A DNA stretch of 64,000 bases from Mytilus galloprovincialis (Eukaryota > Mollusca > Bivalvia > Mytilida > Mytilidae): NCBI RefSeq assembly GCF_965363235.1, contig NC_134844.1, forward strand, positions 91,288,664-91,352,663, written 5' to 3'. A program made the position numbers and the translations under genes. Under the pieces are notes generated by a model that saw only the letters and a program-made list of their open reading frames with translations, had not been told where the DNA came from and made no database searches. Position 1 is the stretch's first letter, and each line of letters begins with the position of its first letter. This document shows, in pieces, positions 3,537-63,865 of this stretch.

Positions 3537-3545
3537 TTGAGGACC
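3537..3545. repeat. Left 9-bp target-site duplication (TTGAGGACC)
   Basis: TTGAGGACC directly precedes the left terminal inverted repeat of the two-gene transposon. It is repeated exactly at 15218-15226, just after the right terminal repeat. Confidence 0.75.
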
Positions 3546-3731
3546 TAACCCGAATAATCCAGTCGTTATATTACGATCCCTATCGATCACTACATTAACG
3601 CCTGAATGCATCCACGGTAAAAACGCGTCAGACCGGGAAATTGCGACGCCTTGCATTGTGGGTATTTTCGATCATACACGATGGCGCCAAAAGAAGGAGG
3701 AGCATAGTAATCCCACAACAAAAGATGTGCA

Positions 3732-6700
3732 ATGGAGTGGGAAAGTAGTGTTTGTTTACATTGTTCACACGTGTTTGACAAGAATTTGAAAAGTGAAAGA
3801 AGAAGAAAGGTTTCTAACATCAGTGATGTTGATTTTATAGATATTATAGCCAAAACTTACAGCCTTGATTTTGATCTGTTGAAAAAATTTCTCGATACGA
3901 ATGAAGATGTATATATATGTGCAAAATGTTACAATTCTGTCAAATCAGTTTCAACAAACAGTAAAAAATATGAACAGTCAAAAACATCTTTAACAGATTC
4001 TGCCTCCAATGATTTTAAGAACTTGTCTATACAGATAGAATACCGTTCTATTACAAGTAAAAGTGGCAGTAGTGCACTGAAAAGAAACAGAAATAGCCTT
4101 ACTCCCACCAAGTCTGGATGCACGCCTAGATCTAAGAAACAAGATAAAAATGTGAATGTCTCAACAACAAAAACACCAAAGAATAATAGACGACGTCTCT
4201 GCTTCTCTGACAAGAAATCAACACAGTCTCCAGGCCCTAAAGTAAAGGTAAGCATCTGTAACTGAAATTATGATTCAGCCATATATGCATGAAAAAAGTT
4301 TACAGGATTTTCTTTTTCTTCTTGAGTGTTTGATTAATAATATATATAAAACTGATAAACAAGATAATGTATGATTGCCAATTATACAGCTCTTAATCCA
4401 AGACCCAATGATATGTCATAAATGTAGTAGAACTTTAAAATATGTTACCATGCCAGGTTACAGTATGGGTTTATGACTCAGACCCTTGGTACATTATTGT
4501 AACTACATGTACATAGGTAAAATGTAATTTCAATGTTTTAAATGTAAAAATGTATAAAGTCTAAGACTGTACATTTTTAACTGCATTAAAAGTATTTTGT
4601 CCAAACCACATTTTTTTCTAAAGCAAACAGACAAAAAGCGATTAAATGCATACAAAATATTTATACATGTACATGTATATAAGTACTCGTATATAAGTAC
4701 TCATTTATATTTAATGCATGCGCATCAACCTGCATAATGTTGTCATGGCATGTGTACACAATACATTTATTTGTGCAATAAAAGTAAATGTTGAGATTTA
4801 TCTTTCAGGTGAACATAGGGTATCGTGGAAGTTCAAGGAACACAGTTTTGAAAGGACATGAGAAGTTGGCATGTCGTGCCTTAGTCATGAAGCAGTACAA
4901 AACAGCTGTAAATCACATGTTCGCATTAGATGTAAAGAAAGAAATTGGCATTGTCATCAAAAAGAAAATTAATAAAGAAATAACAGAAATAGTAAAAAAC
5001 AAAGAATCCTTATTAAGGTCATCAAATCTTTCTTCCTTCTCTTGGAAATCCGCCTACAAACAATTAGAGAATAAATGTCCTTTGACAATGGACCTCCTTC
5101 AGACAATATGTGGGGAGAAGAAAAAAAATGAACCGAGACTTGTCACCAGCATGGCCGTCCTTCTGTTTACCAGAAATCAGCAAATGAACACTATTCAATC
5201 TATAAACAGTGTGTTAATGTTCCGAGGACATGTTAGAACAAAGGTAAGCATTTTAAGAATTAATTATATAAATATAAATCATGTACAGTACTTCATTTAA
5301 ATACCTATTCAGTCTTTCCTAGAGGGCCTTTCAGCACTATGTTTTATAAAAAAAAACATTTCTTTATTATTTTCAGTTCATATGCACTAGGTAATTTGAA
5401 ATCAAAATAATTTTTCATATATATATGTAATAAGAAAAAATCTGTTCGGCACACATTGATCTTCTTCACATGCAACTAGTTGATGTGAGAGTTTGCACTT
5501 TATAAAATATTTCAGTTCTTAGGTTGGGTTATTGAATTGACTCTTTGACACATTCCCTTTGTCCATTTGCAATAACATGGTGTTTCAAAAAAATATTTAT
5601 GTTGCAACATTTTTTTGTTCACCTTCAGTTCTCAAATATTATTTGCTTTCCACCGTGATTGAGTTTTAATTATCACAACATCTGCAGTTTTACTGTACAT
5701 TATTAAATATACACTACATGACCAGCAAATCTCAATGGGTTATTTTATTTCTTCAGGTTTATACTACCTTCAACCGAGCAGGACTCAGTAGTTCCTACAA
5801 GTCCACACTGAATACAATTGATAAGCTATGTGAGAAATTTGATGAGCCTGTGAAGAGATGGACAGAGCAACTCAGCAGTGAAACAATAGATCAGAACACT
5901 TCATTAGGTATACTTAATTATTAATATATATAAGGCATGTTCATTTTTACCTACATGTACATGATGTCCATGTACATGCAATATAAAAAGATATGGTATG
6001 ATTGACAATGAGACAACTCTCCACAAGAGGCCAAAATGACACAGAAATTAACAACTACAAATGTAAAGGTCACCCTATGGCCATCAACAATGAGCAAAAC
6101 CCATACTGCATAGTCAGCTATAAAATGCCCTTAAATGACACTGGAAAACAATTCAAACGAGAAAACTGATGGTCTTATTTATTTATGTACAAAAAATGAA
6201 CCAAAAACAAATATGTAACACGTAAACAAAGGACAACCAATGAATTATAGGCCTGTAACTATTTAATGAAAGTGTAGAAGGGAGACAAATTCTCTTAATA
6301 AAGATGCTTAAATGCTTTTATATCCATAATATCTATATATTATATGATACATTACTTAAGTGAAAATATATATATACACGAAAAGTATTATATATAGTAC
6401 ATGAATGTTAGTAAGAAGATGTGATATGGATGCCAAACAAAGGTTACATGAAGTGTATATACTAGTATACAATGTATAAATCATTTTATTATATTAAATC
6501 TTGATATAATTTGTATTATTTTGTTTTTAAGGTGATCATACATATTCAGCAACCAGTGATGAAAGTAATGTAGAGAACATTGCCACAGATGATAACATTC
6601 TACACATCCAAAGTCCACCAGTAATGTACATAGCAGAACCTATAACAGATACATGTACCACTTCAGATTTTACCTCATTAGATACATGTCAAGAGACACT

Positions 6701-9700
6701 TCCAACTACAGACTCTCCTATGGAAAAGCAGTATGACTTTTTGGATAATGGTAAGCACATGTAATGTGTCTTGTCTGTGTGGATTCCTTATTTTTTTTAG
6801 AGTAACTCACACTACCGGTAATCTGGAACCACTGAAGTGTTTAAGAAGAACAAGGAAATAGCTGTCAAAAATAACTTCAAAGCTGTCACTGTCAGTATTG
6901 TAATTTTGTTAATATGAGGGTCTAAGTATGGTGTACATTTATATTGGTTCCTTTCCTTTATCTAAAACTGAATTGGGGAAATGCTGAGACTTATAAGAGA
7001 GAACAGCTTATTTTTGATTCATGGCGTCTCGTTGAGACACTAATATTTTGTATACATGTGTATCTTGCCAAGTTGTAATTTACCTATCTAATTCTTATAT
7101 ATGTTCTGTGTATCAAATTTGAATTTATTTTACAGGTACATCTGTTCCACCTGGAACTCCTTTATGTAGCATAGAAAACCACACATCTTATTACACACCA
7201 ATGCAACCATCAGTACCATGCGAAGAAGATTCTCCATATACAACTAAGTCGTCAGCAGCAATTCAGGAAACAGGTTCTTTCCAAATCATTATGGACAACT
7301 TGAATATGAACCAAAAGACTAGACACAAGACTGAAGATACCAGCAACAAGGTGCACAACTTGGTCCATTCAATGGCAGTTAATGATAGAGCAACACCAAC
7401 TGACCCGCTAGATGAGATACACCCTCAAGCTGACATTCTATCACTATCTAATGAATTGTTCATTCCAAGTGACAATGACATACACCATCTAAATGAAGAT
7501 TTTAAAATTTTGATCCAAAGAGCTTTAGTAGACAACATCCCAGGACTATCTGAGTACCGACAAGTTGTGCAGTACCATATACTACATGAGTTTTCACAAC
7601 AGGCTGAAAAGAAGAGCACAGTTGTGAGTCTTTATAATTGTACCATTTTGCATGTAACATTGTAAAACGATCTCACCCTTTTTTTTGGACGATCAATGCT
7701 TTTGGTGTAAATAATAATCATGTTCATACAATAAGAAAATGCATTAAATAAAAGTGAGAAATATTGCTGAAGAAAAAAAGTTATTATATTAACATTGAAA
7801 ATTGTTCAACTTAAAAATGAGAAGAAAAAAAATACTGCCATTATGTTCTACATAAAATTTAATTTTAATTAAAACAAGTTCTTGGTGTTTTCTGTTATTT
7901 TTTTAACATATTAGTTATATTATGTTGCTTTTATTTCTAGATACCATTAGGAATTCTTGAGAAGGATGAAAACATCACGGAACAAATGATTGATGTAATT
8001 ACACATTTACAACAGTATGTGCCAAAGAGGGACAAGAAATTAAAGCCATTATTGTTGGGTGGCGATGCCTTGAGTGTTGAGAGGGGTGAAGCTGCTCAGA
8101 AAGCCAGAATTGATGCAGTGACATGTGAAGACAGATTAGATGGCTTTATATGGAAAAGCGAAGATTGGCATGGCCATGTTATATCACTACAGGTATATAT
8201 ATATATATTTATATATAGTTCCTAGTTCCTCTATACATTTGTAAGTGCTACTAAATAAAGGAAATTACACTCTCATTTATCATCATATTATATCCCAGTG
8301 GAATTTCGCTAAATCTCAAGTCTAGTTGTTGTAACTCGTCGATAAACAAAACAGAAAATAGTATCATGTATACAACTTGAAAATGAACCTCTTATATATT
8401 TATCATACAAAAACCCTTTGCATCATTATTATTTATACATTTACATGAGTCAGGTGAATTTATTTGTTCTATTTCAGGCAATGCTTAAACAATTATGTAT
8501 ACATGTAACAAATAAATTTATTTGTTCTAAATATTTATTATTATTTTCAGGATACCTTTAACCTCCATTTCAAGGGTTCTTCATCTGGTGAAATGGGAAC
8601 GTTGTTCCAATTGAAAAATAAATTTGATAGAAGAGGTGTTAAATCAGAGGTACATATACATGATTTTATTTCCATTTACAAATGTTAGTTTTGTGAAACA
8701 ATATCAAACATGATAAAAAAAAAAAGCAAATTATCTAACATTGCAAAAATTACAGCCAAAGTGGGAATGTATTGTTTCAAGATTATCATAATTAGTTACA
8801 TGACAGTTTACAAAATCTGGTTTTGATATATTTTATCTTCATAAAGATTCTTTTCTGTTGAATGTTATATATAAAAAATAAGATGTGGTATGATTGCCAA
8901 TGAGACAACTATCCACAAAAGACCAAAATGACACAGACATTAACAACTATAGGTCACTGTACAGCCTTCAACAATGAGCAAAGCCCCTACCCATATGCTT
9001 GTATTTGGTATGATGGCTGGCTAATGAGACAACTATTCTCACAAATGAAGTTGATGTATATTGTACAACTTTTAATTAAAATGTAATTTTTATATTTCAA
9101 CATTAATTTTTTTTTTATCTTTATAGGTGAAAGATGCAGTAAATGATTGTAGAGAATTTTTAAGATTTGTAACAAGAGGATATATAATTCTTGGAGCCAT
9201 GCACTTGTTAGGTTTTGATTCTTTAGATAGATTTAAAGACCTCAATCATACTTCCGACACTCAAAAGAAGGAATTCCTGGAAAAACTTTCCCAAGACATA
9301 GTAGACAAGTACATTGCTACAGAAAAATTTGATTTAGACGCATTTAAACAAACCAATACACAAGAAGAAGGAAGACATATGTGTGGATATCCGGGGTGCA
9401 AGAAAAGTTTTGCTGTAGATGGGAAATGTAGATCCAAACACAGGTTTCGGTGTCCGTATAAAGAGTTTGAAGGTGTTATACAGCCAGATAATGAGAATGA
9501 CCAACAAGTCCAAAGCACCATTGAGGTCGAAAAAGATAAGAAGGAAGACTTTAAACGCAACTACAGCTGCAGTTTGTTGAGGGATGGTCTTTTTGACTGG
9601 TGTAGAGAAGACGCTGCGAGAGAAAATGATGGTGAACGTTTAGTTAGAATGTGGCGATTTGACATTCTAAAATTTGCTTTAAACAATCATGTAAAATACA

Positions 9701-10209
9701 GGCTATTAGCTTTCAAATTACATGCACAGCTGTTAGCAATATTGCCTCCGAAACAAGCCTTTCAATTGAAAAATAATCGAACTGTAAACATACATGGTGG
9801 AAAGGGTGCTAATGTTCCAGGAGACCTTGCTCTCGAGTTTATGAACATGAGGGCAAAAGATGCTTTAAACTCTCTCAGAGGCAACATGACAAGTGCTTCA
9901 ATTGAAAGGTGCGGGAGAAGTCTCCAAGGCTGCAATGACATTATAGATTCCTATACAACAGGATTAAACCAATTTTTTGGAAAGCCTTCAAACACCAAGC
10001 CATCAATTCAGAAAGATATTGACATTCTTGTAAAACATTTACAACCAGAAGAACTTTTTCAAGACATTCCAGGAAGATGTCACAGGACATTTGACCGTAT
10101 GAACTCAAATTGCTTAACCAAGTTGGATGGACAAAAATTGAACTCTTGGCTCACCAGCAAAAAAGAAGAATTTTCAAAGACACAAAGACTACGGTCTTAT
10201 TTAGTTTAA
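3732..10209 (+). CDS. Zinc-finger, DUF6589-type protein (putative transposase), 8 exons
   Basis: Exons 3732-4247, 4809-5243, 5757-5907, 6532-6750, 7136-7623, 7941-8192, 8551-8649 and 9127-10209 all have GT-AG borders. The phases chain (0,0,1,1,0,0,0) into 1081 codons including the stop. The N-terminus has paired Cys-x2-Cys motifs (C8/C11 and C63/C66), spaced like a ZAD-type zinc domain. A basic, Ser/Thr-rich linker follows. From about residue 600 the sequence resembles DUF6589, with GGDALSVER (D645, E650), EDWHGH (D678, H680) and NIHGGKGANVPGDLALEFMN (D953, E957). A C2HC finger (C806, C811, H825, C829) interrupts it. The scattered conserved acidic residues would suit an RNase-H-like transposase, but that catalytic role is inferred. 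The start is the first ATG after a CG-richer leader. Introns 3 and 7 hold SINE-like repeats. A possible poly(A) signal AATAAA lies at 11372. It could alternatively be a domesticated host gene, but its position inside the flanked block argues for an element gene. Confidence 0.85.
5985..6245 (+). repeat. SINE-like repeat in intron 3 of the DUF6589 gene
   Basis: A long copy of the unit: GATATGGTATGATTGACAATG, ACAACTCTCCACAAGAGG, then CATCAACAATGAGCAAAACC. It lies wholly in the intron between exons ending at 5907 and starting at 6532. Confidence 0.75.
8870..9045 (+). repeat. SINE-like repeat in intron 7 of the DUF6589 gene
   Basis: GATGTGGTATGATTGCCAAT opens the copy. A partial second start (GGTATGATGGCTGGCTAATG) follows at about 9008, so the end is duplicated or rearranged. 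Confidence 0.7.
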
Positions 10210-10309
10210 TTACAAATTTAGTGCTTTGATTTATAAATAGTATGATGGTGCTACATATTTTACCGAACATGTACATTTTTTTATTTCTTGTTTGATGAGT
10301 TTCATATTT

Positions 10310-10870
10310 TTTAGTAGTGCTTTTAATGTGTCCTTCTTTTGTGTTTAAATTGATGTGTGCTTCTTTTGTTCGTACATATGCGCTTTTAGTGTATCGATGT
10401 GTCCTGCTTTGTGTTCAAGTTAATGTTCTGGTTGTTTATATCGATAAAAGTGGCTTTTGTCTGTACATATTTACCTTTTTTTTGTCTATTATTTTGTGTT
10501 TTTTTGTACATATTGAAGTGTGCTACATGTATATATTGATGTGTGTCCTACAAGTTTATATTGATTTGTGTGCTGCTTTTGATCGTACATATTGAAGAGT
10601 GCTGTCTGCTAAGTGTGTTTGTATTGATGTGTGTTGTTTGTTTATAATGATGTATACTACTTGTGTTTTGATGTGTGCTTCTTGTTTACATAGCTGCTTT
10701 TGTTCGTACATATTTGCTGTTACTGTTTGACATATTTTGTGTACTGCTTTTTTGTACATATTGAAATGTGCTACATGTATAGATTGATGTGTGTGCTACA
10801 GACAACATGTATGCTACTTTTTTATATTGATGTGTTTTGCTTTTTTTTTCCCTTGACATTAATATCGTGT
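10310..10870 (+). repeat. Degenerate GT-rich repeat in the 3' region of the DUF6589 gene
   Basis: Repeated variants of TTTTGTTCGTACATATTGA and GATGTGTGCTAC at irregular spacing. The hydrophobic, Cys-rich frames here are artefacts of the repeat. It probably lies in the 3' untranslated region or just beyond it. Confidence 0.6.
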
Positions 10871-11371
10871 TTATGGTCCTCTTTAAAAATGTAAATATGT
10901 TGATGAATTCTTATCAGTTGTATGCTATTTTTTTCCAATCTAATTGGTAATTGATTTCTGGAGTACTTAACTAGTTTCTAAAAAATAATATTAATTTGAA
11001 TAGAAATTAAAATCATGAATTTGAATTGTTTGAAATTAAGTGGTACATTTGAATTTATATTAAATTCAGTATCTGATACATGTACTCATTTTTTGGTTGT
11101 ATAATTATTATTTGACATGTTTATTTTTAATGATGTTTACTTTGAGGCAACACTAGTCTTTTTGTTTGTTAAACTTAGGTATTAAAGAAATTTTGTTAAG
11201 GTCTTTCTAGTAAAGAAGAAATCTGTTTTAAGTAAATATAAACATTGAACCATGCCTCCTGTCATATATACATATACATGTGTATTGTTTTTGCTTATTT
11301 AACATTGTACATGTGTGTGTTTAGTTTTATTTATGATACATTTTAATTTATTTTGATCTATTCAGATCTTA

Positions 11372-11377
11372 AATAAA
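11372..11377 (+). terminator. Possible poly(A) signal of the DUF6589 gene
   Basis: AATAAA lies about 1.16 kb after the stop codon. I saw no canonical signal closer to the stop. Use of this one is an inference. Confidence 0.3.
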
Positions 11378-11754
11378 ATTTGAATACAACTTGCATTGTT
11401 TTGATTCTATATACTTGTCAGTTTCAGTTATCAAATATAAGTCTTTAATGATTGTTAATTCAGAAACTTGTTATTCTTTTGTATTGTGGTTGATGATCCA
11501 GTGAGTACAGCTAATTTCCACTGTTGGTTTTCTCCATACCATTTGTTGGTGTACCATAACAAACTTTACAAACCTCTAGCGTAAAGAAAGTAGAAACATA
11601 CCAAATTCAATACAATGAAATACATGTCTTTCGGTGGCAATCATACCACAATATATGTTTAAAGCCATTGAGAAATTAAACAAGACAAACAGCAGACAAA
11701 ATAACACTAAAAACTCTGAAATACAACAAATAACTCGAGTTATCCTAGAAGTTA

Positions 11755-12040
11755 CTGTACCATGTGTAATGTCTGGACTAATTGATAACTTATTTATGTA
11801 TGTGCCTGTCCCAAGTCATGAGCCTGTTATTCAGTGGTTGTCATTTGTTTATGTGTTTCATATTTGTTTTTCGTTAATTTTTTTACATTGTCTTATCGGG
11901 GCCTTTTATAGCTGACTATGCTTTATGGGCTTTGCTCATTGTTGAAGGCTGTACGGTGAACTATAGTTGTTAATGTAAGTCATTTTTGTCTTTTGTGGAT
12001 AGTTGTCTCATTGGCAATCATACCACATCTTCTTTTTTAT
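11755..12040 (-). repeat. SINE-like repeat, reverse copy, between the two transposon genes
   Basis: It runs from the GTGCCTGTCCCAAGTCATGA segment to TTGTCTCATTGGCAATCATA and ends in a T-rich tract. This is the fuller reverse form, also seen at 63470-63860. Confidence 0.75.
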
Positions 12041-12267
12041 ATCATTTTATATTCTTGAATTAATGTTTACTATTGGACACCTTGAACCAATCAAACAAAC
12101 AAGCACGAAACAAATTTTGGCAATGAAAAGTCAGTGCAAATAAATAACTGTATAATATTTCTATTTATTTTAAAAGTACACAAGACAATTATGACATTGT
12201 GGATATGTATGACAAATATTTATGTTACATTGTACTCAAAAAAATACTCAGTATTTTCCTTAATGTC

Positions 12268-12508
12268 AGAAATCCCACACATACCATGCATACAGTTGTA
12301 TGTATCTTTATCTGAGCATTAAAAATTGAACATCTACAGACATGTCGATTGACACGATAAAAAAAAATAGAACTTGTTGAGTTTATGAAATCCCACACAT
12401 ACCATGCATACAGTTGTACGTATCTTTATCTGAGCATTAAAAATTGAACATCTACAGACATGTCGATTTACACGATAAAAAAAAAAAGAACTAGGTTGAG
12501 TTTATGAA
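12268..12508. repeat. 118-bp tandem duplication
   Basis: The block starting AATCCCACACATACCATGCA at 12271 is repeated from 12389 with few differences. Both copies end in a short A-run. It lies just downstream of the helicase stop codon. Confidence 0.85.
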
Positions 12509-12649
12509 AATACATTGTAAATAATGTATGTTGCATTTCAACAACAAAATTCATGCAATATTTTGACACAAAAAAAATTAGAACTTGAATTGGTTGAGTT
12601 TTTGAAAATACATTGTACATATTGTATGACCCTACATCACTGTATGTAC

Positions 12650-15021
12650 TTAGACTTCTTCAATAAGTGTTAAAATATCTGCAGCAAGCTCAGGGCTAAC
12701 AAGTCCTAGAGATATCACATCATCCTCACATAACAAATATGGTGCATTTTTTACAATGTGGTCTAAAGCAAAGTCCTCTAACTCACATGAAAGTTCACTT
12801 TCTTCTTCAATAAGACATTCTTTGTAGTCTAATAAGTTTTCACGAAGTAATCGTCGTTGTTCAAGAGTAAGATCTCTTTTAATACCAGTGTTAAAGTCTT
12901 CATCAAGAACCGATGAGTTATCTAATTCCCTACCTAGAAATTGGCTTTCACTACAGAATCCACAGACACACTTTAATTTGCAGTTACTACAGCATGTACA
13001 AGGAGGATCAGGCTTTATAACACTATAACCACTAGTATCTAATTGAAAGTATGCACACAAAGTATTCCTTAAACAGTCTTCAGTCTTACAAAATTCTCGT
13101 ACTTCTTCTGAACAGTTTCCCTTAGCCAAGTCATATCCACTGAAGTAGATAATTGAAACGGCTGAGCGACCATCTCTGCCTGCCCTGCCACTTTCTTGTG
13201 AGAATTGCTCTAGACCTCGTGGCCCTCCCCAGTGAATGACACGCTCAATGTCGGGAATGTCTATACCCATTCCAAACGCAATGGTAGCAAAAACAACACG
13301 CAGAGAACTGTCAAGTTTCTGAAACTCATCAAGCACATGACTTTTATTGATATCAGCAGTCGAACGGTGAAACATTCCTATCAATCTATTATCTAGAGAT
13401 TCACTTCTGTCATTTAATGAAAGTCTGAAATACTCATACAAATTGGAACAAGATACAATATTTCTGCAATATATGATTGTCTTTTTGGTGGATTTTTCAA
13501 ATTTAAGTAGGTCGTTAATTAACCAGTCTAAATCTGCCAAATTCTTACTACTTTTTTGCACATAATATGATAAATTTGGTCTTTCTGGTATCACGGAAAT
13601 AATGCTTGTTTTTATGTCCATATCAAGTGTTTTCATAATGTCTTTCTTTATTGATCTTGTTGCAGTTGCTGTTAAAGTCACAAAAGTTGTTTTTTTTGGA
13701 ACAACAGATCGAAGTTCTCCAAGATGACTATACTCCTTGCGAAATTCACCACCCCTGAAATAGCAAAAAAGATAAATATAATGTAAAGAAATAAACTGAC
13801 GTTCTTCTTACTGCATTAATTGAAGCATACACACATCTCCTTCTTTCCATTTCGAGACAACCAATCTATTATGAAGTGTTTTAATTATTGGTTTTTCAAT
13901 GAAATTTTATAGTTTTTATTTATTTTTTGAAATTTGTTAACCCTTTTGCTGCCAGGTGTTTTTCAGGATTGCATTTCATATGCCAGAAAATACTACCACT
14001 CAACATTAGTGACGTTACATGTCAAACAGTGACTTCATACCGTAATAACCGTTACATTGAAAGCCAATTGATGTAGAAACATATTACACTTTTAATTTTT
14101 TTCTTATTTTGAAAAGAGGTACAGCAATGATGATAAGCTTTCATAAATCATGGACATATATGTCCCTCCAGCATTGTCCAGCAGGCGGTGTGGACATGTC
14201 CATGTCTGTCATATGATATTTGTTTTTCATAATTGTTCTGTTTAAATTTAGTTATTAGTTGTCTCAATTGAATTGTTCAGATGACATATTTTTCTTTTAC
14301 AGCTGTCTTTTAGGGCATGGGTATTTTCTAATTGTTGAAAATTGTACAGTTACTTTTAATTTCTAATATCCATATCATCTGAACTTTTGTGGATAGCTAT
14401 AGTTGTCTCATTGGCCAACATACCATGACCACGTCTCCTTATTCATTTTGTGGCATACAAAATTGTTGCCTTCATAATTTAATCAGGTTAACATGTTCAT
14501 AACAAAAAACTAGATACAAAATGTAAATACACATTATATAAATAATATCGTAAAAATTACCATTGTGTTATACAGTGAGCCTCATCTATAACAACTGCCT
14601 TCAAATGGTCATGGAATACACCCTGTGTAATACATCTCCGCCATGGACCTTTATTCAATACTGCTTCAGGAGAGGAAAACACAATGGAGAATTCACCCTC
14701 GATAATTCGTGCCGGAATACTTTTGTCTGTTTGCTTTTCCCCAAGGAATGTAGCACTAACACCATTGTTTTCAAGTTTGGTAACCTGGTCAATCATTAGG
14801 GCTTGGATAGGTGATATAACAAGCACTGTCCCTTTGGCGTGGGTTACAAGTTCGTATAATTCTGGCAAATGTGAGTAAATTTTGGACTTGCCGTAACCAG
14901 TTGGCAGAACTACGAAGGTATCCTGACAGTTAAATATGGATGTAATAGCGAGCTTTTGTTTTTCTTTAAATATAAAGTCATATTTAGCTTCTAAATCTTG
15001 TAAAGCTTCAACGATGTCCAT
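12650..15021 (-). CDS. RecQ-family ATP-dependent DNA helicase, 2 exons, 521 aa
   Basis: Exon 1 is 15021-14561 and exon 2 is 13754-12650. The intron splits the Trp codon of HCITQW (phase 2 donor, one base in exon 2). Helicase motifs occur in order: a P-loop TGYGKS (residues 41-46), DEAH (146-149), TLTATAT (180-186), TIIYCRN (about 246), ATIAFGMGIDIP (about 310) and QESGRAGRDGR (about 340). A Cys-rich zinc-binding segment (about 376-421, including CTCCSNCKLKCVCGFC) completes the RecQ core. There is no visible HRDC or nuclease domain and only a short acidic C-terminus, so the protein is shorter than human-type BLM or WRN. RecQ enzymes unwind DNA 3'-5' using ATP. In this element the protein may process transposition intermediates, which is inferred. 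A SINE-like repeat lies in its intron. Confidence 0.92.
14255..14445 (-). repeat. SINE-like repeat in the helicase intron
   Basis: A diverged reverse copy: CTAATTGTTGAAAATTGTAC, then ATAGTTGTCTCATTGGCCAA and CATACCATG. Confidence 0.65.
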
Positions 15022-15217
15022 GTTTTTGTTTTGAATTCAACAACCGGAAACTACGGAAGTGAGTTCTGCGCAAAATCATGCATAATTATAATGACCTGCG
15101 ATCTGATTGGGCCCTCTCAGCGACAGGGCTGGTGACGCGTCCAATGATCATGAAGAATTCAAGCCCTCGAAAGGTGGAGAGAATCGGAGACGGTAAGGGC
15201 TTGAATTATTCGAGTTA
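15022..15217 (-). promoter_or_regulatory. 5' leader and promoter region of the helicase with subterminal inverted repeat
   Basis: About 195 bp between the helicase start codon and the element end. It is richer in CG than its surroundings. It carries GAATTCAAGCCCT and its inverted partner AGGGCTTGAATT about 22 bp apart. No TATA box is obvious. The promoter role is inferred from position. Confidence 0.45.
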
Positions 15218-15226
15218 TTGAGGACC
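15218..15226. repeat. Right 9-bp target-site duplication (TTGAGGACC)
   Basis: An exact partner of 3537-3545. The sequence that follows (AAAAATTCC...) resembles the dispersed GAGCATTGAGGACCCAAAAT repeat, so the element seems to have landed in a repeat copy. Confidence 0.75.
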
Positions 15227-15244: not shown

Positions 15245-15470
15245 TGCCAAAAAATTTTGTGGCTTATTTGTAGCTCTAATTTTGTGGCTTATTTGAAACT
15301 CTAATGTTGTGGCTTATTTGAAGCTCTTATTTTGTGGCTTATTTGTAGCTCTAATTTTGCACTTATTTGTAGCTCAAATTTAGTGGCTTATTTGTAGTTC
15401 TTATACCTATAATTTTGTTGCTTATTTGTAGTTCATATAGCTCTAATTTTGTGGATTATTTGTATTTTAG
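15245..15470. repeat. Minisatellite, about 25-bp unit TTTTGTGGCTTATTTGTAGC
   Basis: Eight to nine imperfect copies of TTTTGTGGCTTATTTGTAGC plus TCTAA, directly to the right of the transposon. Confidence 0.85.
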
Positions 15471-17201: not shown

Positions 17202-18440
17202 TTAACAGGGTGATAAAACAACTCCAAATAAATTTTTCTCTTTTTTAAAATGCACGAGGAAAGAAACAGCTGGAGTCCCATCATTGAAACACGAAGAACA
17301 AACATCAAATGACACAGTTGACAAAACAAACACATTAAACCACCAGTTCCAATCAGTGTTTACTGAAGACAACAAAACTGAAATGCCAAATATTGGAAAT
17401 AAAACTTTCAACACCATGAATGACATCAATTTCACAATAAATGGAGTAGAAAAGCTGCTGAAAGAACTCAACCCTAACAAAGCAAGTGGGCCAGACCATC
17501 TCACCCCAAGAATACTGAAAGAACTCCATCATGAATTAGCTGCAACAGTCACTTTCTTGTTCAATAAATCTATGTTTCTATGTTTCTAGGGAAAACACGC
17601 ATTTTTTTGTCCAATCTACAAGAAAGGGCCAAGCCATGAACCAGCAAACTACAGGCCTGTCTCATTAACCTGTATCCTTTGCCAGCTTATGGAGCACATC
17701 GTAGTAAAAACGTCATGAAACATCTAGAAACTAATAAAATACTATCCGAATTCCAACACGGCTTTAGAAGTAAGAGATCGTACGAGACACAACTCATAGG
17801 TCTGATACATGATCTAACATGTACGATGGACTTAAAAATACAAACAGACATGATAGTTCTGAACTTTGTAAAGGCATTTGATAACGTCAGCCATCCACGC
17901 CTGCTACACAAGCTCAGACACTATGGGATAAGAAGGAAAAATCACAAATGGATCACAACATTTTTAGACAACAGAACACAGGCAGTTGTACTTGAAAATA
18001 AGTATGTTGTACTTGAAAATAAGTATTCAGACAAAGTGGGAGTAACATCTGGAGTACCCCAAAGCAGTGTACTTGGACCTGTCCTTTTTCTTATCTTCAT
18101 TAATGACATCACTGATGATATAAAGTTAACAATTCGTCTGTTGGCTGATGATTGCACCATCTACCGGCTAATTTGAACTACCGAAGATCAAGCCATCCTC
18201 CAAAAAGATCTGACTACACTGACGAAATGGGAACAGAAATGGAAAATGGAATTTAATGTCAGCAAATGCAACGTGATGCACCTAACAAGATCTAAAACCC
18301 CACAAAAGAACCCTATTGCATGCATGGGAAACAACTAGAAGCGGTCACAGACACGAAATACTTGGGAATTACCATCAAAATCCCTTAGCTGGAACCTACA
18401 CATAAACAACATTGTAGCCAGTGCAAACCAAACACTGCTG
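17202..18440 (+). mobile_element. LINE (non-LTR retrotransposon) fragment, CR1/jockey-like reverse transcriptase
   Basis: Translated pieces follow the reverse-transcriptase order. The connecting region includes RKETAGVPSLK. Next come GPDHLTPRILKELHHELA, FVKAFDNVSHPRLLHKLRHYG, GVPQSSVLGPVLFLIFINDI and LADD (the catalytic YxDD-type box), then KDLTTLTKWEQKWKMEFNVS. The endonuclease half is missing, so the copy is 5'-truncated. The frame shifts near 17590 after a short T-rich duplication and again near 18170 and 18330, so it is dead. It lies downstream of, and opposite to, the Roco-type gene. Confidence 0.85.
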
Positions 18441-22100: not shown

Positions 22101-25100
22101 TTGGGCCCCTTATTCCTAAAAACCTGTTGAGACCAAAACTCCCAAAATCAAACCCAACCTTCCTTTTATGGTCATAAACCTTGTGTTTAAATTTCAAAGA
22201 TTTCTATTTACTTATACTAAAGTTATGGTGCGAAAACCAAAAATAATGCTAACTTGGGCCCCTTTTTGGCCCTTAATTCCTAAACTGTTCAGACCTCAAC
22301 TCCCAAAATCAATCCCAACCTTCCTTTTGTGGTCATAACCCTTGTGTTTAAATTTCATTGATTTCTATTTACTTATACTAAAGTTATTGTGCGAAAACCA
22401 AGAATACTGCTTATTTGGGGCCTTTTTTGGCCCTTAATTCCTAAACTGTTTGAACTAAAACTCCCAAAATCAATCCCAACCTTCCTTTTGTGGTCATAAG
22501 CCTTGTGTAAAAATTTCATAGATTTCTATTTACTTAAACTAAAGTTATAGTGCGAAAACCAAGAAAATGCTTATTTGGGCCCTTTTTGGCCCCTAATTCC
22601 TAAAATTTTGGGACCAAAACTCCCAAAATCAATCCCAACCTTCCTTTTGTGGTTATAAACCTTGTGTTAAAATTTCATAGAGTTCTATTCATTTTTACTA
22701 AAGTTAGAGTGCGAAAACTAAAAATATTCGGACGACGACGATGACGCAAGACGACGCAGGACGACGACGCCAAAGTGATAGCAATATACGACGAACAATT
22801 AAAATTTTTGCGGTCGTATAAAAATTGAACCCCACCAATTTTTTTTCACCTCCCCCTTTCCCTTATTCCAAAAATGATCTCAATTCAAATTTCTAATGGA
22901 GTTTTCAACAATAACTACTCATTTAAATACATCATAAAATATAAAATGTCATACAGTCATGATTTAAGTTGATTTAACTACTATTATGGACAAAGAAAGA
23001 TAACTCCAATGCAACATTTTATATAGGCAAATTTCCAATGAAGTTCATTAAACTAAGGGTTTTGGCAAATTTCCAATGGAATTTATTTATGACAAAGTTT
23101 TTGGCAAATTTCCAATATACATAATTTAAGAGCAGTTTAGGTGAGCTATTCAAATGAGTTTCAATTACCAACCTTACACTGCTTTTCAATTATATGTTGT
23201 ACTTAAGTAATTGTCCATTAACAGGGAAACCCTTTTCCCCCCTTTTTAGCACCTTATTCCTTAACGGTTTGAGCCATGACTCCCAAAGACTTCTTACCAT
23301 CCATTTGTGGTATTCCAATATCCAAAATCTTAATACATGGTTAGAATCATCATATCAAAGAACCCCAAGAATTCTATTTTTGATGAAATAAAAAAAAAAT
23401 CAATTTTGGACCCTTTAGACCTCAATGTGGACCAATTTGATAATCGGTCCTAAATATTAAAAATCTAAATACATGGTTAGATTCAGCATATTGAAGAACT
23501 CAATATATTGAATTTTTGTTGAAATCAAACAAAAGTTTAATTTTGGACCCTGATTTGGACCAACTTGTAAACTGGGCCCATAATAAAAAACTAAGTAGAC
23601 TACATGTTTAGATTCAGCATATCAAAGAACCCCAAGAATTCAATTTTTGTTAAAAAAACAAACTAAGTTTAATTTTGGATCCTTTGGACCTTAATGTATA
23701 CTTATTTGAAAATGGGACCAAAAATTAAGAATCTAAATACATGGTTAGATTCGGTATATCAAAGAACCCCAATAGTTCAATTTTTGATGAAATCAAACAA
23801 AGTTTAATTTTGGACCCTTTTGTCCCCTTATTTGTTGGGAACAAAACTCCCAAAATCAATCCAAACCTTCCTTTTGTGGTCATAAACCTTGTGTTAAAAT
23901 TTCATAGATTTCTATTAACTTTTACTAAAGTTATTGTGCAAAAACCAAGCAAAATGCTTATTTTGGGCCCTTTTTGGCCCCTAATTCCTAAACTGTTGGG
24001 ACTCTAAACTCTTAAAATCAATCCCAACCTTCCTTTTGTGGTCATAGACCTTATGTTGAAATTTTATAGTTTTCTGTTTACTTATTCTAAAGTTATTGTG
24101 CGAAACCAAGAAAAATGCTTATTTGGGCCCTTTTTGGCCCCTAATTCCTAAACTGTTGGGACCAAAACACCCAAAATCAATCCCAACCTTCCTTTTGTGG
24201 TCATAAACCTTGTGTTTAAATTTCATGGATTTCTATTTTACTTTTACTAAAGTTAAGAGTACTAAAACCAAATGTTTTCGAACGATGACGACACCGCCAA
24301 CGTGATACAAATATACGACCAAAACATTTTTCAATTTTTGCGGTCGTATAAAAATGACAATATAAACGATATTCTTGTCAACACCAAAGTGCTGACTACT
24401 GAGCTGGTGATACACTCGGGGAAAAACGTCCACCAGCAGGTGGCATCGACCCAGTGGTGTAAATAGTTATCAAAGGTACCAGGATTATAATTTAATATAC
24501 AAATGAATCATCAGTGATGCTCAGATCAAAATAGTTGTAAAGTCAAACAAGTACAAAGTTCGGTACTGGCATGAAAATACGGATTTTTTGTTAAAATTTG
24601 CTGTAACAGTTACAAAACGATAAAAATTATTATAAATTAAGGAATGTATCTCCCTCATGCAAAGCTCTGATTCCTATAACTGATTTGGCTATACTTTTTG
24701 GACCTTTTGGATTATAGGGGAAGCACTAATGACAGGACGATTGCACGGATAGTGACAGGACGGTTGACCGGACGACACATAAATAGTCATAATTTTTTTG
24801 TTATTCAATAGATTTGTTTACTATTTGTAGACCTTAAAGATATTAAAATATATTTTATGAAAATCAAACAAAATAAGTGAAAAAAAATATTTTTGAGCAA
24901 ATAAAGTTGACCGGACGGTATTCATACTCGCCGTTATACGCTATACATATATTCAACTGGTCGGCAACAAGTGTTAATATCTCTTTTATTTTACAATATT
25001 TGTCAACAAAATTCCGGAATCTGTGAGAATAATAAATATTGGATACGAAAATATAAATTTAAAAGTTAAAAAAAATGTTTTTCTCCATAAAAAGTTGACC

Positions 25101-28100
25101 GGACGGTATTCACATCGCCGATGTACACGTTAATTATATTGAACTGATAAAAAAGTGTTAATATCTCCTTTTTTTACAATATTTTTACACGAAACTAAGA
25201 AATCTACGAGATCAATAAATACTTGATATAAAAATATGAACTTTATAGTACATAAAAATGTTTTTCTTCAAAAAAAGTTGACCGGACGGAATTCACTTTC
25301 GCCGATATATATGCTTTAAATATACTGAAATGATCGACACAATGTTAATATCTCTTTTATTTTACCATATTTGTCCATGAAATTAAGAAATTTTGGAGAT
25401 TTATAAATATGTTATACGAAAATATCAAATGTATAGTAAAAAAATATATTTTTGAGCGAATAAAATTGACCGGACGGAATTCACATTTGCCGATATATAT
25501 CATGTATATGCTTTAAATATATTGTACTGATCGACACGTGTTAAATATCTATCCATGAAATTAATGAATCTGTGAGCTTTATAAATATACACTTTATACT
25601 AAAAACTTTGAGCCCAAAATGTCGACCTGAGTAAGTTCACCAGCACACTAGAAGACCTAATATTTAAAATATTAATTATTTAATTAAGATTACTATCTAT
25701 AATTTTGACACCTGTCGTAATCACCAATCAAGCCAATAATCATGTCATTTAAGTTTTCACACCTGAGACATCAAATACATTTAATTGAATTAACTTATTA
25801 ATCTGTTGGCAATTAGAGGGATCTGGTGGCCGTTCATGAAAAAATATTACGCAAAATCGTGAATCCTGAGAGTTTCGCAGACTCTTAGGAGGCACAATTA
25901 TTTGAGTGTCCCTACCCTTGGCACATCAGGCTCCAAAAACACTAGTCAAGTAAAAGACATCAGCCAAGTTGAAAACACCAGCCAAGTTGAAAACACCAGC
26001 CAAGTTAAAAACACCTTCAAAACAGAAGGCTGTATCAACACCAAAATCTACTAAGATTGAGGTATGCTGCTAATGGCAGTCAAGATCATCAGATACTTCT
26101 TACTCAGTAGTGACAGTCCACCGGCTTCCGTGAAGACAAGATTTCTTGGTTTAATGGGAAAAAATAGATATTAGCACTTGTGTCGATCCTGTTAATATAT
26201 TTAAAACCAGACACATAAATTACACCTATAGACTCTATTAGATTTGTGAATCTGTAAACAAGTATCATATGTCTCTGTCAAATTACATCGGCAAATGTGA
26301 ATTCAGTCCGGTCAACTTTATTTGGTTTTTTTCAAGAAAGTTTATATTTTCATATGATATATTTATTGATGTCGCAAATTTCCCAGTTTCATGACTTAAA
26401 TTAACCTCTTAAATATTGTTAATCTTAAATTTTTTTGATTAACATCTATAACTAGTTATAGTAGTCTCAGTTAACTACATGTTTAATCAACGTGTACATC
26501 GGAGAATGTGAACACCGTCCGGTTAATTTGTTTGGCAGAAAAACATTTTTGTTTATCATGAAGTTTATATTTTCGTATAATATATTTATTAATCTCATAG
26601 ATTCCTGAATTTCATGGACGAATATTGTAAAACAAAAGAGATATTAACACTTGTGTTGATCATTTCAATATATTTAAAGCATAAATCGGCAAATGTTAAT
26701 ACCATCCGGTCAATTTTTTATAGCAGAAAAACTTTTTTTTTTTATAAATTTATATTTTCGTATAATTTATTAATAAATCTTACAGATTCCTGAATTTCTT
26801 GGACACATATTGTAAAGCAAAAGAGATATTAACACTTGTTGCCGACCAGTTGAATATATGTATAACGTGTAACGGCGAGTGTGAATACCGTCCGGTCAAC
26901 TTTATTTGCTCAAAAATATTTTTTTTCACTTATTTTGTTTGATTTTCATAAAATATATTTTAATATCTTTAAGGTCTACAAATAGTAAACAAATCTATTG
27001 AATAACAAAAAAGTTATGACTATTTACATGTCGTCCGGTCAACCGTCCTGTCACTATCCGGGCAGTCGTCCTGTCATTAGTGCAACCCGGATTATAGCTC
27101 TTCATCTTTTATATAAGCTTTGGATTTGAAATATGTTGGCCACGAGCATCACTGAAGAGACATGTATTGTCGAAATGCGCATCTGGTGCAAGAAAATTGG
27201 TACCATTAATTTTATTACTTCCACTGGGTCGATGCCTCTCCTGGTGGATTATTAGTCCCCGAGGGTATCACCAGCCTAGTAGCCAGTACTTCGGTACTGG
27301 CATGAAAATACGGATTTCTTGTGTTATTAAAATATGCTGTTACAAAATGATAGAAATTATTATAAATTAAGAAAAGTATCTCCCTCATGCAAAGCTCTGA
27401 TTAATTTCACGGATTTGGCTATAGTTTTTTTTGGACCTTTTGGATTATAGCTCTTCATCTTTTATATAAGCTTTGGATTTCAAAATTTTGGCCACGAGCA
27501 TCACTGAAGAGACATGTATTGTCGAAATGCGCATCTGGTGCAAGAACATTGGTACCGTTAATTTTATTACTACCACTAGGTCGATGCCTCTGCTGGTGGA
27601 CTATTAGTCTCCGAGGGTATCACCAGCCTAGTAGCCAGTACTGCGGTACTGGCATGAAAATACGGATTTTTGGTGTTATTAAAATTTTCTGTTACAAAAT
27701 AATAGAAATTATTATAAATTAAGGAATGTATTTCCCTCATACAAAGCTCTGATTAATTTCACGGATTTGGCTATACTTTTTGGACCTTTTTGATTATAGC
27801 TCTTCATCTTTTATATAAGCTTTGGATTTCAAATATTTTGTCCACGAGCATCACTGAAGAGACATGTATTGTTGAAATGCGCATCTGGTGCAAGAAAATT
27901 GGTATATTTTTTTTTATTGAAGAGCATTGAGGACCCAAAATTAAAAAAAAAGTTGTGCCAAATACGGCTAAGGTTATCTTAATACAGTATGTCTATTTTG
28001 AGTGAATATGTAACAAGATTTAATAATTATTCAGTATACAACCTTCTTTGCTTGTGTTTATAATAAACCCTTCAGTCATACCTTCAGTATCAGCAGATGC

Positions 28101-31100
28101 TGATGTTGGACTTGGACTGATTTCGTGTGAATCAGATTTCAAATCATTAGCGATGTCTTCGTATCCATAAATAAGTAATCCAACAACAAACACACTGTAA
28201 GCGGGTTCTCCCCTTTTAATAACAATATTAAGCAATGCTTTATTCTGATCATCTTGTCCAGCATGTCGTTCAATACGGCGTCTGTCATCTACTGATATCA
28301 CCAATTGGGTCATCATGTGATCTAAAATCTGGCTGGTTTGTATATCCTGTATGATTCTGTCTGCATTATCTCTGATTTTATCTGAAATAAATAAATAAAA
28401 AGTACTGTAACCTTCTTAATGACTGTTATGTAAAAATGCCCAGAATAACCTGAAATATTTTAAATATTCCACTGAAATTATAATATTATACACCTGAACA
28501 TCTATGACAACAGATACTTATTCCAATGTTCAGTTTGTTATTTGTCTCCCATCTTGCATTGGAATTGAATAACATTCTTACTTGATTCATCTCAAATATC
28601 ATAGTTTCATCAAAACTTTTGATTTTTTCAAACCTGTATACCACCATTTCACATGAAGAAAAGGAAAAATGATCTGTAAGTAATAATCCACTATTTGTAT
28701 TAAACGTAAAAATTTGTAAGGGTTCCACGGAACCCAGTGTCTCGCCTACTTTTTCTGTTAATCGCAGGTTCAACAAAAATGAGGAAATAAATCAATTAAA
28801 ATATTCCTCTTGATACTATCTTTTGATTGTTAGAAGATTCTTTCTAAGTTTGGTAAAAATCCAGGATAGTTTATGTATCTAATAAATGTTTAAAAACATT
28901 AACTGCAGACTGAATGTGATGTTAACTGGAATAAAACAAATTTCCTTCTAGATACTAGTATTTGATCATAAACAAGATTCTGTCCAAGTTTGGTACAAAT
29001 CCAAAATAGTATAAGAAGGTTATTAAAATTTTAAAAAGTTTAACCACAGAGTGAATGTGTTGTTTCCTGGCAGAAAATCTAAGTCCATTCAAAAGTAAAA
29101 TACGGAAAAAATGGATTTATTTTTTCACAAAATTTACATCTTGATGATATCTTATGATCATAAACAAGCTTCTGTCCAAGTTTGGTAAAAATCCAGGATA
29201 GTTTGAGAAATATTTTAAAATTTCAAAAACTTTAACCAAAGAGTGAATGTGTTGTTTCCTGGCAGAAAATCTAAGTCCATTTAAAAGTAAAATAAGGATT
29301 TATTTTTTACAAAATTTCCTTCTAGATACTAGCTTTGATCATAAACTAGCTTCTGTCCAAGTTTGGTACAAGTTTGATAATGTAGGAAGCATCTAATTTC
29401 TAAGTCTATCATTTATTAAATATCCTCTTAATAGATGTTAATTCCCGAATGATTAGTTTGACACAACTATATACCACTATTAAATACCTGTAACAGTTTC
29501 CACATCTTTCATTGTTTTTGGATCCACATCCTTCACAACGTTCTCTAAACCGTTTGCTCCTCTCCCAATATTTACTAAAGCTTCTTCAAGCACCCGTATT
29601 ATAGGTTTCACTCTTCTGTCTTTCCTCCAAGTAAATAATACTTCTTTATTCTGGGCTGGCGAATCACGATTGTATTTCACTTTTATGTTCTCTATATCTG
29701 TGATTAACAATCCAAGTTCTGTTCCTAGCTGAAAGACCATATTTCCAATCAATGGTGCTACTTTATCTAATATTTCATCTGTAGGAATGCAATCTAAGAT
29801 ATCACCAGGGATACCTACAAGAGAAAAAAAATATCCAAAATATTTCCAAATAAAAATTCAGACTGACTTGAATATTAAAGGTGTAAAACTTATTGATTGA
29901 TTTGTTAAATTGTTTTCACACAAAGAAAATAATACAAGTACCTATAATAACACTTCTGTATCATGATGTTTAATTGAAAGTATATAGTTTACTTAAATGA
30001 TTTATTATTTCTAAAGAGAGGACATAACAAAGTCATCAAAGATCACAAACAAATAATTTTGAAATAATAGACGTCAATAGAAATTTGACGAAATATAAGT
30101 AAATCTGAAAGAAAATCTTAGTATTTCGAATGCTTTTACGGTGTTAAGAACAATTATAACAAATAGATACACATGGTACATCTCAAAGTATATTATGGTT
30201 CATCATAACAAATAGATACACATGGTACATCTCAAAGTATATTATGGTTCATCATAACAAATAGATACACATGGTACATCTCAAAGTATATTATGGTTCA
30301 TCATAACAAATAGATACACATGGTACATCTCAAAGTATATTATGGTTCATAATAACAAATATATACACATGGTACATCTCAAAGTATATTATGGTTCATC
30401 ATAACAAATAGATACACATGGTGCATCTCAAAGTATTTTATGAGGACAGACAAGCATATGCAGTTGGAGAAGTTTAAAATCTTAGCTTCCACTAAAGTTA
30501 AATGCATTTAGTGTTCGCTAGGGTGAGCTGACATTTCAGCTGATGAAGTTAGTATCAAGACATGAAATGTCATTATTCTTTTTATTGGAAATTAATTAAT
30601 ATGATTTTTTGATTGTTGAAAATATGAAGTAAAATGTCATATCTAAATATTAGGGAAATATCATGGTATACTCCTGTTCATGAGAGTAATACAAGCAACA
30701 TGCACAATATCAAGAAATGTATTATTGGCAGTTTGTCATCACAATATTAAGGAGTATATTGAAATAAAATTTCTTTTGTAGGGGCTTTACTCATTTACAA
30801 ATAATTTATCAGTACTAATTCTAAAATTTGACAGAGACCTTGATGATATAATCCTATGATATGAATTTCATGAAATGTTGGCATTCATTTCTTTCAAAGG
30901 GGCATTACTCTTCTAAAAATATTTGATCGGCACTGATTTTCAAACTGGCCCAAGAAATTGCTGATATAAACATATGACATGAGCTTCATAAGAATATGAC
31001 AAGAATTGTTAACATAAAAGTGCTTAATAAAAGCAAAAGAAGTACACCGCTGTTCAAAAGTCATAATTCGATTCAACAAAAAAAAACATATCCGGGTATC

Positions 31101-43100: not shown

Positions 43101-46100
43101 TTAACTACTGTTATGCTAATTCAATTTTTTCTCTAGATTTTATAGTTGAAGTGATGGAGCCAAATAAATAAGGTAAATTTAACCCCTCCACAGTTTGCCC
43201 CTGTCCCAGGTCACTGGCCTTTGTTAGTCTTGTATGATTTTTAATTTTAGTTTCTTGTGTATAATTCGGAGTTTAGTATGACGTCTATTATCACTGAACT
43301 AGTTACATATTTGTTTAGGGGCCAGCTGAAGGACTCCTCCGGGTGCATATTTTCTCGCTCCATTGGTGGCCTTCGGCTGTTGTCTGCTGTATGGTCAGGT
43401 TGTTGTCTCTTTGACACATTCCCCATTTCCATTCTCAATTTTATCAGTATGTAAGGGCAACCACTTTTTTTAAAAATCAGCTTATAACGCTGGCCATGTT
43501 GATGTATCTGTAGCTACTTATCTTACAGATCCACTCACCTCTTTCTGGTTCCAGATACTCCAATAGTGTTTTATGTTTTCACCATGTTTGCAAAAACATT
43601 CTTTTGTTTCAACACCTATCTTTTCATCTGGAGTGAAACAGCTTAATTTTGAACAGGAATACTCTGTATGAAATGGTAGCTTGTTGCTAGTTTTACAATG
43701 AATAGTGGAATGATAAAATTCTGAAATTCTCTCCAAAGTAATAAACAAGCATTCTCTGACACTAGTGGCTATTTCAGGTATTATCAACCCCTTGGAGCGC
43801 TTGTGGACTAGGTACAATAAGATCTTGTTTCCTTCTACACAGATAACAATGTCATGCTCTTTATCAACTGATAACCCAACAAACCCAGAAAACATAAGTT
43901 TCCTACCACGGTATTGTTTTAATGTCCACATACTGAGACATGCGCATATTAGACGGTTTGGTAAGGCTGGAGGTATGATGGTTCCTTTGAAAACAAAAGC
44001 TAAACTGAGAGTCCTCTCTGGTGTACATTCGTGTGTCAAGTAATCTGTATCGTGTCTTTGTGTTAGCATACAGGGTACAAAGAAGTGTTCCACTGGTAGA
44101 CGACTTCCTGTTTTTGAATCATATCTACGCTGCTCAGATACGATATCTAGGTGTATCAGCATATCAAATATGTACTCTTTAAATGGTAAAATCTGACGGA
44201 ATTCTTCTTGCTCCCAAATCTGGTAGAGGTCTAATTTTTGTATCATTCCATTTATAGACATCTTTTTGAAGGTTTTCCTTATTTTCTCTTCTTTTGGCCA
44301 GAATTCAACATCTATGAAAATGAAAATAAAAAAAGAATATCTTAAGATTTTAAATTAAGATTTTAGATTTAAGTCAAAAATATATTAACATTATAAGGTA
44401 TTAATTTACTAAATCGCCCACCTAGATCAGAATAGGAAAACAAACTAATCTTGATAATTCAATTAAATGTCCTATTTCAAAACAAAGTAATTTTCTTATT
44501 CTGTATGCAAAGCATCTGATGATAAAAATTGAATACTTTCCAATATAGAAAAATATTACCGCAAAAAAGCATGCATATTTCTTTAATAATGTTCACAATA
44601 TTAGAGAGAATCTGTATAATTTTTGTACAAGCAACATAAATGGCAATGGTGAAATGTGATCTGAATGTATAGTTCAATCTTGCTTCTTCTTATGATGAAA
44701 AAGAATGTATTTTAGTTATAAAGTCCTTTACCACATTTTGTTTCTAAATGATTTTGTTTTTGGTTTGATTATCATTGTTTTAATGTAAGTGATTGTTTAT
44801 TTGAAGCCAGATAGTGGTTATGAAACCGACCAAAGTTGCGAATTTTTTTTTTCATTTTACAATTTAAAAGACTTAAATCATTTAATGGTTTATAGAAAAT
44901 AATGCTACTGTAATTTACGTATTTAAGGGAAATCACCAATCATAAACAAACTGAACGACAACACAATACAAAAGTGAAAACGAGAAGAAAGTCCATTAGG
45001 TATGTTTAAATTAGTGTATTTCCTAACAACATTTGTAAAGCTGTTGATCGTCCATCTTAATTTAAACACGGATTTTTTTCTTGCAATTTTATTTTGCTGG
45101 GGAGATTATGTTTAAAGAAAACAGAGCCATCAATGATAAGTTTTAAAGAGTTTCATCCCTTGTTTTCAAAATCATCATCTAAACAAAGGTCTATAAAACG
45201 TCACAATGAAAACTATATGTTTTTAAAACAATATATGGTTGTTCTCTTAAAATTTCAACTCAAAAGATGATGTATGGCATTAACCTTGTCAGTTAATTGC
45301 TGTCTTTGATATACTAGTATTCTTATTCAAAAGTATTTTGAACAGATTTTGACTTCATCTAAATAATACATTCCTTTGACTTGATTAAGTCTTATTTTAT
45401 TTGCCAGCCATGGTATATAATAGTTCAATAGTTAATAACTGGATTGATCACAGGCAGTGTCCTTCTAACATTCTAATATTATATTAATTTTACAAGAAAT
45501 TCATGCTCCGTTTTTTAGGTTCAGATTTCAGGATGAGATTTCAACAATAAATTGAGAAGATTTGCAATTTAGATTTTGGCTACAAATACTTCATTTTCAC
45601 AGGTGTATGAGTTGAGTATGAATATAACAACTACACTTTGTCTCAAACATAATTGTGTTGGTCCTTAATTGAAACCCGGATAGGAATACTTGCATTTTCA
45701 AAGTTTCTATACATTGTTGAGATATTCTATATTTAGAAACTATGTAGTTTTATAGTTATACCTAAACCTTTATACTTATTAAATAACAGTTTCAGTTTAA
45801 ACTAAAAAAACTTTTTTTTTTTAAATTTGCAATTGTGTTTTTACAAACATTACAAAACGTAAGTTAAATCAGCCATCATCTTCAAATTTTCATAAATATT
45901 AATGCTGTGAATATAAACTAAAGGCTCCAAGTATAGCATGTGTCTCTCACCTGATATTTTTGTTTACAATTAATGCATGAAATAATGCAACCATTATAAT
46001 TTTGTTTTAGCTTCAGAGATATATGCCAAAAACTGCATGTTGCCCTTATGTTCCATATTTAGCCATGTCTCACTCTGCCATGTTGCGAATTGGTTGGCAG

Positions 46101-63469: not shown

Positions 63470-63865
63470 TGATTTTTATAGTTCGTTCTTATGTTGTACC
63501 GTAACACAACTGTCCAAGGTTTGGGGAGGTTTGGGACCCCGCTTACATGTTTAACCCTGCCATATGCTGTATGTATGTGCCTGTCCAAAGTCAGGATCCT
63601 GTAATTCAGTGGTTGTCGTTTGTTGATGTGTTACATATTTGTTTTTCGTTCATTTTTTTGTACATTATTTAGGCTGTTAGTTTTCTCGTTTGAATTGAAT
63701 TACATTTGTCACTTCAGGGCCTTTTATAGCTGACTATGCGGGATGGGCTTTGCTTATTGTTGAAGGTTGTACAGTGATCTATAGTTGTTAATTTCTGTGT
63801 CATTTGGTCTCTTATGAAGAGTTGTTTTATTGGCAATCATACCACATCTTGTTTTTTATATGATC
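63470..63865 (-). repeat. SINE-like repeat, long reverse copy
   Basis: The longest copy in the window: TTGTACCGTAACACAACTGT, TGTGCCTGTCCAAAGTCAGG, CTTTGCTTATTGTTGAAGGT and TTATTGGCAATCATACCACA, ending in a T-rich tract. Minisatellite-like TGTCAATGTATCAATATGTC sequence follows to the window end. Confidence 0.75.

Follow-up and report, generated by a model that had tools for sequence, protein, structure and literature searches.

A probable AcademH-type DNA transposon with genes for a DUF6589 protein and a RecQ-family helicase

The stretch of DNA analysed here, a 64-kb window of contig NC_134844.1 with a G+C content of 32.5 percent, harbors two convergent genes within its first quarter, namely a forward gene encoding a protein with a DUF6589 domain and a reverse gene encoding a RecQ-family helicase. 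The two genes lie in a block of 11,672 bp (positions 3546-15217), which is enclosed by a perfect 9-bp direct repeat and has imperfect terminal inverted repeats (TIRs) at its ends. The most likely reading is that of an AcademH-type DNA transposon, complete and apparently autonomous, as the block resembles AcademH in being a DNA transposon that encodes a helicase and is flanked by a target-site duplication of 9-10 bp (PMC10045372).

Two convergent genes and their preservation

The forward gene can be read as eight exons, which are joined in phase by GT/AG junctions into an open spliced frame of 1080 aa. Exon 1 (3732-4247) carries a CxxC...CxxC motif and is followed by exon 2 (4809-5243), exon 3 (5757-5907) and exon 4 (6532-6750). 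The DUF6589 domain starts in exon 5 (7136-7623), continues through exon 6 (7941-8192), which contains the motifs GGD and EDWH, and exon 7 (8551-8649), and ends in exon 8 (9127-10209), where a Cys/His cluster, a DLALE motif and the stop codon are also located; all eight exons are on the forward strand. The Pfam match to DUF6589 (3.3e-41) covers residues 544-999 of the protein and positions 7-400 of the 410 in the profile. The initial annotation had described the product as a zinc-finger DUF6589 protein, and of this description the DUF6589 part stands, whereas the zinc finger corresponds to cysteine motifs spotted by eye, with no zinc-finger domain matched above cut-off in Pfam. Matches to ADIP (0.0063) and Gin (0.086) were below their Pfam cut-offs and were discarded. 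The NCBIfam search of the protein returned no match, the search against solved structures gave none up to E 10, and exon 8 searched by itself to the same limit gave a single match at chance level (E 5.3). For DUF6589, which is unnamed in Pfam, the element suggests a role as a transposase domain. In the literature searched, DUF6589 was not mentioned and PF20231 appeared only in an unrelated context, while the excerpts of PMC8290104, PMC12210899, PMC8594854 and PMC8905726 contained nothing relevant to the anatomy of the element.

The reverse gene consists of two exons with GT/AG junctions in phase and encodes an open frame of 521 aa. Exon 1 (14561-15021, reverse strand) contributes the GYGKS and DEAH motifs, and exon 2 (12650-13754, reverse strand) contributes the helicase C domain, a cysteine cluster and the stop codon. 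The product had initially been annotated as a RecQ helicase, which is supported by a match to TIGR00614 (RecQ family; 4.9e-75, 253.1 bits) above the curated cut-off of 219.8 and by the best relative among solved structures, which is a RecQ (2.9e-46); the stricter models of single RecQ proteins are not reached (TIGR01389: 228.4 versus 640.2 bits). In Pfam, DEAD, Helicase_C and ResIII were matched above cut-off and the RecQ zinc-binding domain below it (E 0.028). Judged by eye against the known helicase motifs, GYGKS, DEAH, the CITQWGGEFRKEY loop, LTATAT and QESGRAGRDGR are intact. Among human relatives, BLM and WRN come next after RecQ, and the bit scores are nearly equal (RecQ 161, BLM 151, WRN 148). 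As the protein is at a near-equal distance from all three, and as the Pfam search reported neither an RQC nor an HRDC domain, the helicase does not appear to be simply BLM or WRN copied from a host genome. One AATAAA is found 480 bp 3' of its stop codon.

Within the block, all six frames between stop codons that reach 130 aa or more are exons of one or the other gene, and when frames of at least 100 aa with a start codon are considered, a single further open reading frame (ORF) of 108 aa appears, antisense to exon 1. The gene models were made without transcripts and their exon boundaries were picked to keep the frames open; on these models, the two convergent genes, initially annotated as apparently intact, can indeed both be read as open, GT/AG-spliced frames of 1080 and 521 codons. 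Under a model of uniform substitution, the presence of 4803 coding bases without a stop limits neutral decay to at most about 1.2 percent, a limit that depends on gene models selected for openness. Recent activity, which had likewise been proposed, is weakly supported by this limit, but ongoing selection would be equally compatible with it.

A dispersed repeat of ~290 bp at 63570-63861 has relatives at three places within the transposon, namely in intron 3 (5985-6252), in intron 7 (8869-8995) and between the two genes (11795-12042), and a weaker match is found in the helicase intron, hence the coding parts have been spared by these repeats. The stretch between the two genes also contains a 118-bp tandem duplication (12269-12509).

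Ends, subterminal motifs and insertion site

The block is bracketed by TTGAGGACC, which, as initially annotated, is present as a perfect 9-bp direct repeat at 3537-3545 and 15218-15226 and cannot be extended by the neighbouring base on either side. Immediately inside it are the 17-bp TIRs (3546-3562, forward; 15201-15217, reverse), which had correctly been called imperfect and are identical at 14/17 positions. From the start codons (3732 on the forward and 15021 on the reverse strand), the distance outward to the ends is 186 and 196 bp, respectively. When the window was shuffled with dinucleotides preserved, at least one comparable bracket arose in 4/60 shuffles, so that the bracket by itself is moderately unlikely to occur by chance and is to be regarded as suggestive, not conclusive. 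Brackets were counted as comparable if they had a 9-bp repeat pair 1-20 kb apart and inverted ends matching at 14/17 or more, cut-offs that were picked after the case was known. In the real window two pairs satisfy this definition, the bracket at 3537-15226 and a separate element at 24709-27097, and when the upper distance limit is dropped, 3 of 45,775 repeat pairs reach 14/17, the TTGAGGACC pair included.

Further inward, the motif ACGCGTCA is located 78-85 bp from the left end (3623-3630, forward) and, mirrored, 78-85 bp from the right end (15133-15140, reverse). These two occurrences, at equal offsets and in opposite orientation, are the only ones on both strands of the window (0.21 expected). 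The motif was found by comparing the first 300 bp inward of each end and the control is therefore post hoc, an equal-offset 8-bp match between random 160-bp pieces of the window having a frequency of 0.00535 (20,000 draws). The mirrored ACGCGTCA, a candidate transposase site, is an additional sign that the ends are genuine. A hairpin-forming inverted repeat (15152-15211) overlaps the right TIR (z -3.42, with 3/200 shuffles folding equally well), and as the left end (3546-3643) has no hairpin (z -0.08, 85/200 shuffles as good), it is not a feature common to both ends.

Sequences resembling the inverted ends are more frequent in the window than expected, with 11 that have at most 3 mismatches, whereas 1.95 are expected and no shuffle gave more than 6. 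Two of the 11 are the true ends, and the remaining nine have 3 mismatches each, six of them starting with GAACCC (21786, 22046, 23627, 23764, 42916 and 58332). The latter are not paired as ends, and three of them (21786, 22046 and 58332) are inside tandem arrays. Other facing pairs of end-like sequences in the window had no matching flanks of 8-10 bp (best 7/10).

TTGAGGACC itself occurs five times in the window against 0.35 expected, because it is part of a dispersed repeat, of which copies (one of them with TTCAGGACC) are present at 20360, 27927 and 52772 on the forward and at 32051-32043 on the reverse strand. In these four related copies, TTGAGGACC (in one with a mismatch) is followed by sequence that resembles the right flank of the transposon, and the right target-site duplication is continuous with a fragment of the dispersed repeat. 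The scores against the right flank were equalled by 0 to 0.5 percent of shuffles, whereas those against the left flank were equalled by 33 to 64.5 percent (200 shuffles each), so that as a paralogous empty site the repeat agrees with the right side of the insertion and not with the left. The transposon seems to have inserted into a relative of this TTGAGGACC-containing repeat. The mismatch on the left would be explained if the target copy had been truncated before the insertion; alternatively, the left flank may have changed afterwards. The copy at 27927 has low upstream similarity to the other three (scores 12, 20 and 20, versus 38 to 107 among those three). Tandem repeats of 25 bp and 34 bp occupy 15253-15464, starting 27 bp past the right target duplication.

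The bracket in 4/60 shuffles, together with a left flank that differs from the expected repeat sequence, would also be compatible with a chance arrangement in which repeats happen to enclose two genes of separate origin, one left from a decayed transposon and the other a RecQ gene that was captured or belongs to the host. However, the bracket is located just beyond both start codons, ACGCGTCA has a mirrored arrangement and no further occurrence in the window, both genes are readable as open frames, and the helicase, in which Pfam reported neither RQC nor HRDC, is almost equally far from RecQ, BLM and WRN, which makes such a chance assembly very improbable.

When both proteins were compared with the window by tblastn, only their own exons were recovered, together with a 16-residue match (E 3.4) for the DUF6589 protein. 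In non-animal collections, where single-sequence queries reach close relatives only, no relatives of exon 8 were found among viral, phage and genome contigs, and none of helicase exon 2 among viral contigs. The end pattern was present in 84 stretches of viral contigs, which are read as chance matches, since 0/84 records encode either protein (E 1e-3) or match the element (E 1e-5).

Other features of the window

The separate element at 24709-27097 is a second probable transposon, in which the 9-bp repeat GGATTATAG lies outside long, highly similar inverted ends, of which 500 bp were compared and about 490 bp aligned. It lacks ORFs of 130 aa or more and looks like a non-autonomous Mutator-like element (MULE). 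A reverse transcriptase fragment is located at 17640-18173 (RVT_1, 1.1e-17). Seven ORFs of 130 aa or more lie outside the AcademH-type candidate; the domain search covered five of them, and matches comprised a CARD domain at 28023-28415 (7.3e-11), COR-A at 47596-48324 (1.5e-05, below cut-off) and Roc at 60403-61092 on the reverse strand (6.6e-06, just below cut-off); these three ORFs may be exons of CARD and ROCO-type genes of the host. The ORF at 43521-44354 had no match. Neither Rfam families (at gathering score) nor tRNAs were found in the window.

Proposed mechanism and comparison with known transposons

The DUF6589 protein may be a DDD/E transposase, with GGD and EDWH in exon 6 and DLALE in exon 8 as candidates, picked by eye, for the catalytic acidic residues. 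It would bind to the TIRs as well as to the ACGCGTCA sites, release the element and join it to the target at cuts offset by 9 bp, so that repair would leave TTGAGGACC on both sides. Helicases of the RecQ family unwind DNA 3' to 5', and the encoded helicase could accordingly act as a motor in the 3'-to-5' direction and open or displace strands at the ends, at the target or in the joined product during excision, joining or gap repair. To our knowledge, the role of a transposon's own helicase is unsettled.

For AcademH, target duplications of 9 or 10 bp are reported, and for AcademX of 3 or 4 bp, a difference that is seemingly tied to the helicase or nuclease that is encoded (PMC10045372). With a duplication of exactly 9 bp and a helicase that exceeds the curated RecQ-family cut-off, as well as those of DEAD and Helicase_C, the element has the pattern stated there for AcademH, which favours the AcademH lead of the initial annotation; the domain searches bear out the view of the block as a transposon that combines a DUF6589 gene with a RecQ-family helicase of its own. 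The repeats of the window resemble those known from mussels (Mytilus and related genera), and the host is probably a bivalve, which would fit the finding that Academ, nearly restricted to bivalves among molluscs, has been amplified there (PMC10294476).

Several points weigh against this classification. The bracket frequency in shuffles and the poor agreement on the left flank have been described above, and neither a second copy nor an empty site was seen in the 64-kb window. No AATAAA or ATTAAA is present within 700 bp 3' of the stop codon of the DUF6589 gene, and AlphaFold, applied to exon 8 alone, gave a mean pLDDT of 35.1 and no usable model in which an RNase H-like fold could be recognized. 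The tie between DUF6589 and Academ transposases is a presumed one, hence the element is called a probable AcademH member; AcademH itself has reportedly been described from animals and fungi. Furthermore, the element is, with 11,672 bp, about twice as long as curated bivalve Academ elements, whose mean length is 5565 bp (PMC10294476).

The presumed nature of the placement of DUF6589 in Academ and this excess length would also suit a DUF6589 transposon with a helicase that is a relative of AcademH and not a member. Its RecQ helicase could have been gained independently, since RecQ helicases have joined the Kolobok superfamily as well (KolobokH; Kolobok-1_CCri; PMC9587614). However, a 9-bp duplication in combination with a helicase is the stated AcademH pattern (PMC10045372), and such an origin appears unlikely. 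Similarly doubtful is a distinct DUF6589 lineage that acquired the RecQ helicase in the form of a separate gene, spliced and convergently oriented, and in which the helicase is an obligate transposition partner that sets the 9-bp stagger; were this true, the good preservation of the copy would make it naturally suited to testing a helicase-set stagger. In our assessment, the element is probably a well-preserved member of the already described type AcademH.

Among other known systems, Helitrons have a Rep/PIF1-type helicase and no target duplication, in contrast to the RecQ-type helicase and the duplication of the element. MULEs share the 9-bp duplication, and no MULE transposase domain was found among the Pfam matches up to E 1. 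The target duplication of Kolobok elements is TTAA, which differs from the 9 bp observed here and leaves a KolobokH-type element scarcely credible. KolobokH does resemble the element in that a DDD/E transposon carries a RecQ helicase, which in Kolobok-1_CCri is on the complementary strand; the helicase of the element, a separate gene on the opposite strand, departs from the KolobokH features given in the same source (PMC9587614). AcademX would belong to the same superfamily if DUF6589 is Academ, yet it combines a 3-4 bp duplication with a nuclease (PMC10045372), and both the 9-bp duplication and the lack of an XPG match (Pfam up to E 1, either protein) speak against it. With AcademH, the element shares helicase and duplication length, and with its two open genes, its defined ends and a candidate site in subterminal position it provides a concrete copy for testing the link between helicase and duplication length that has been proposed (PMC10045372).
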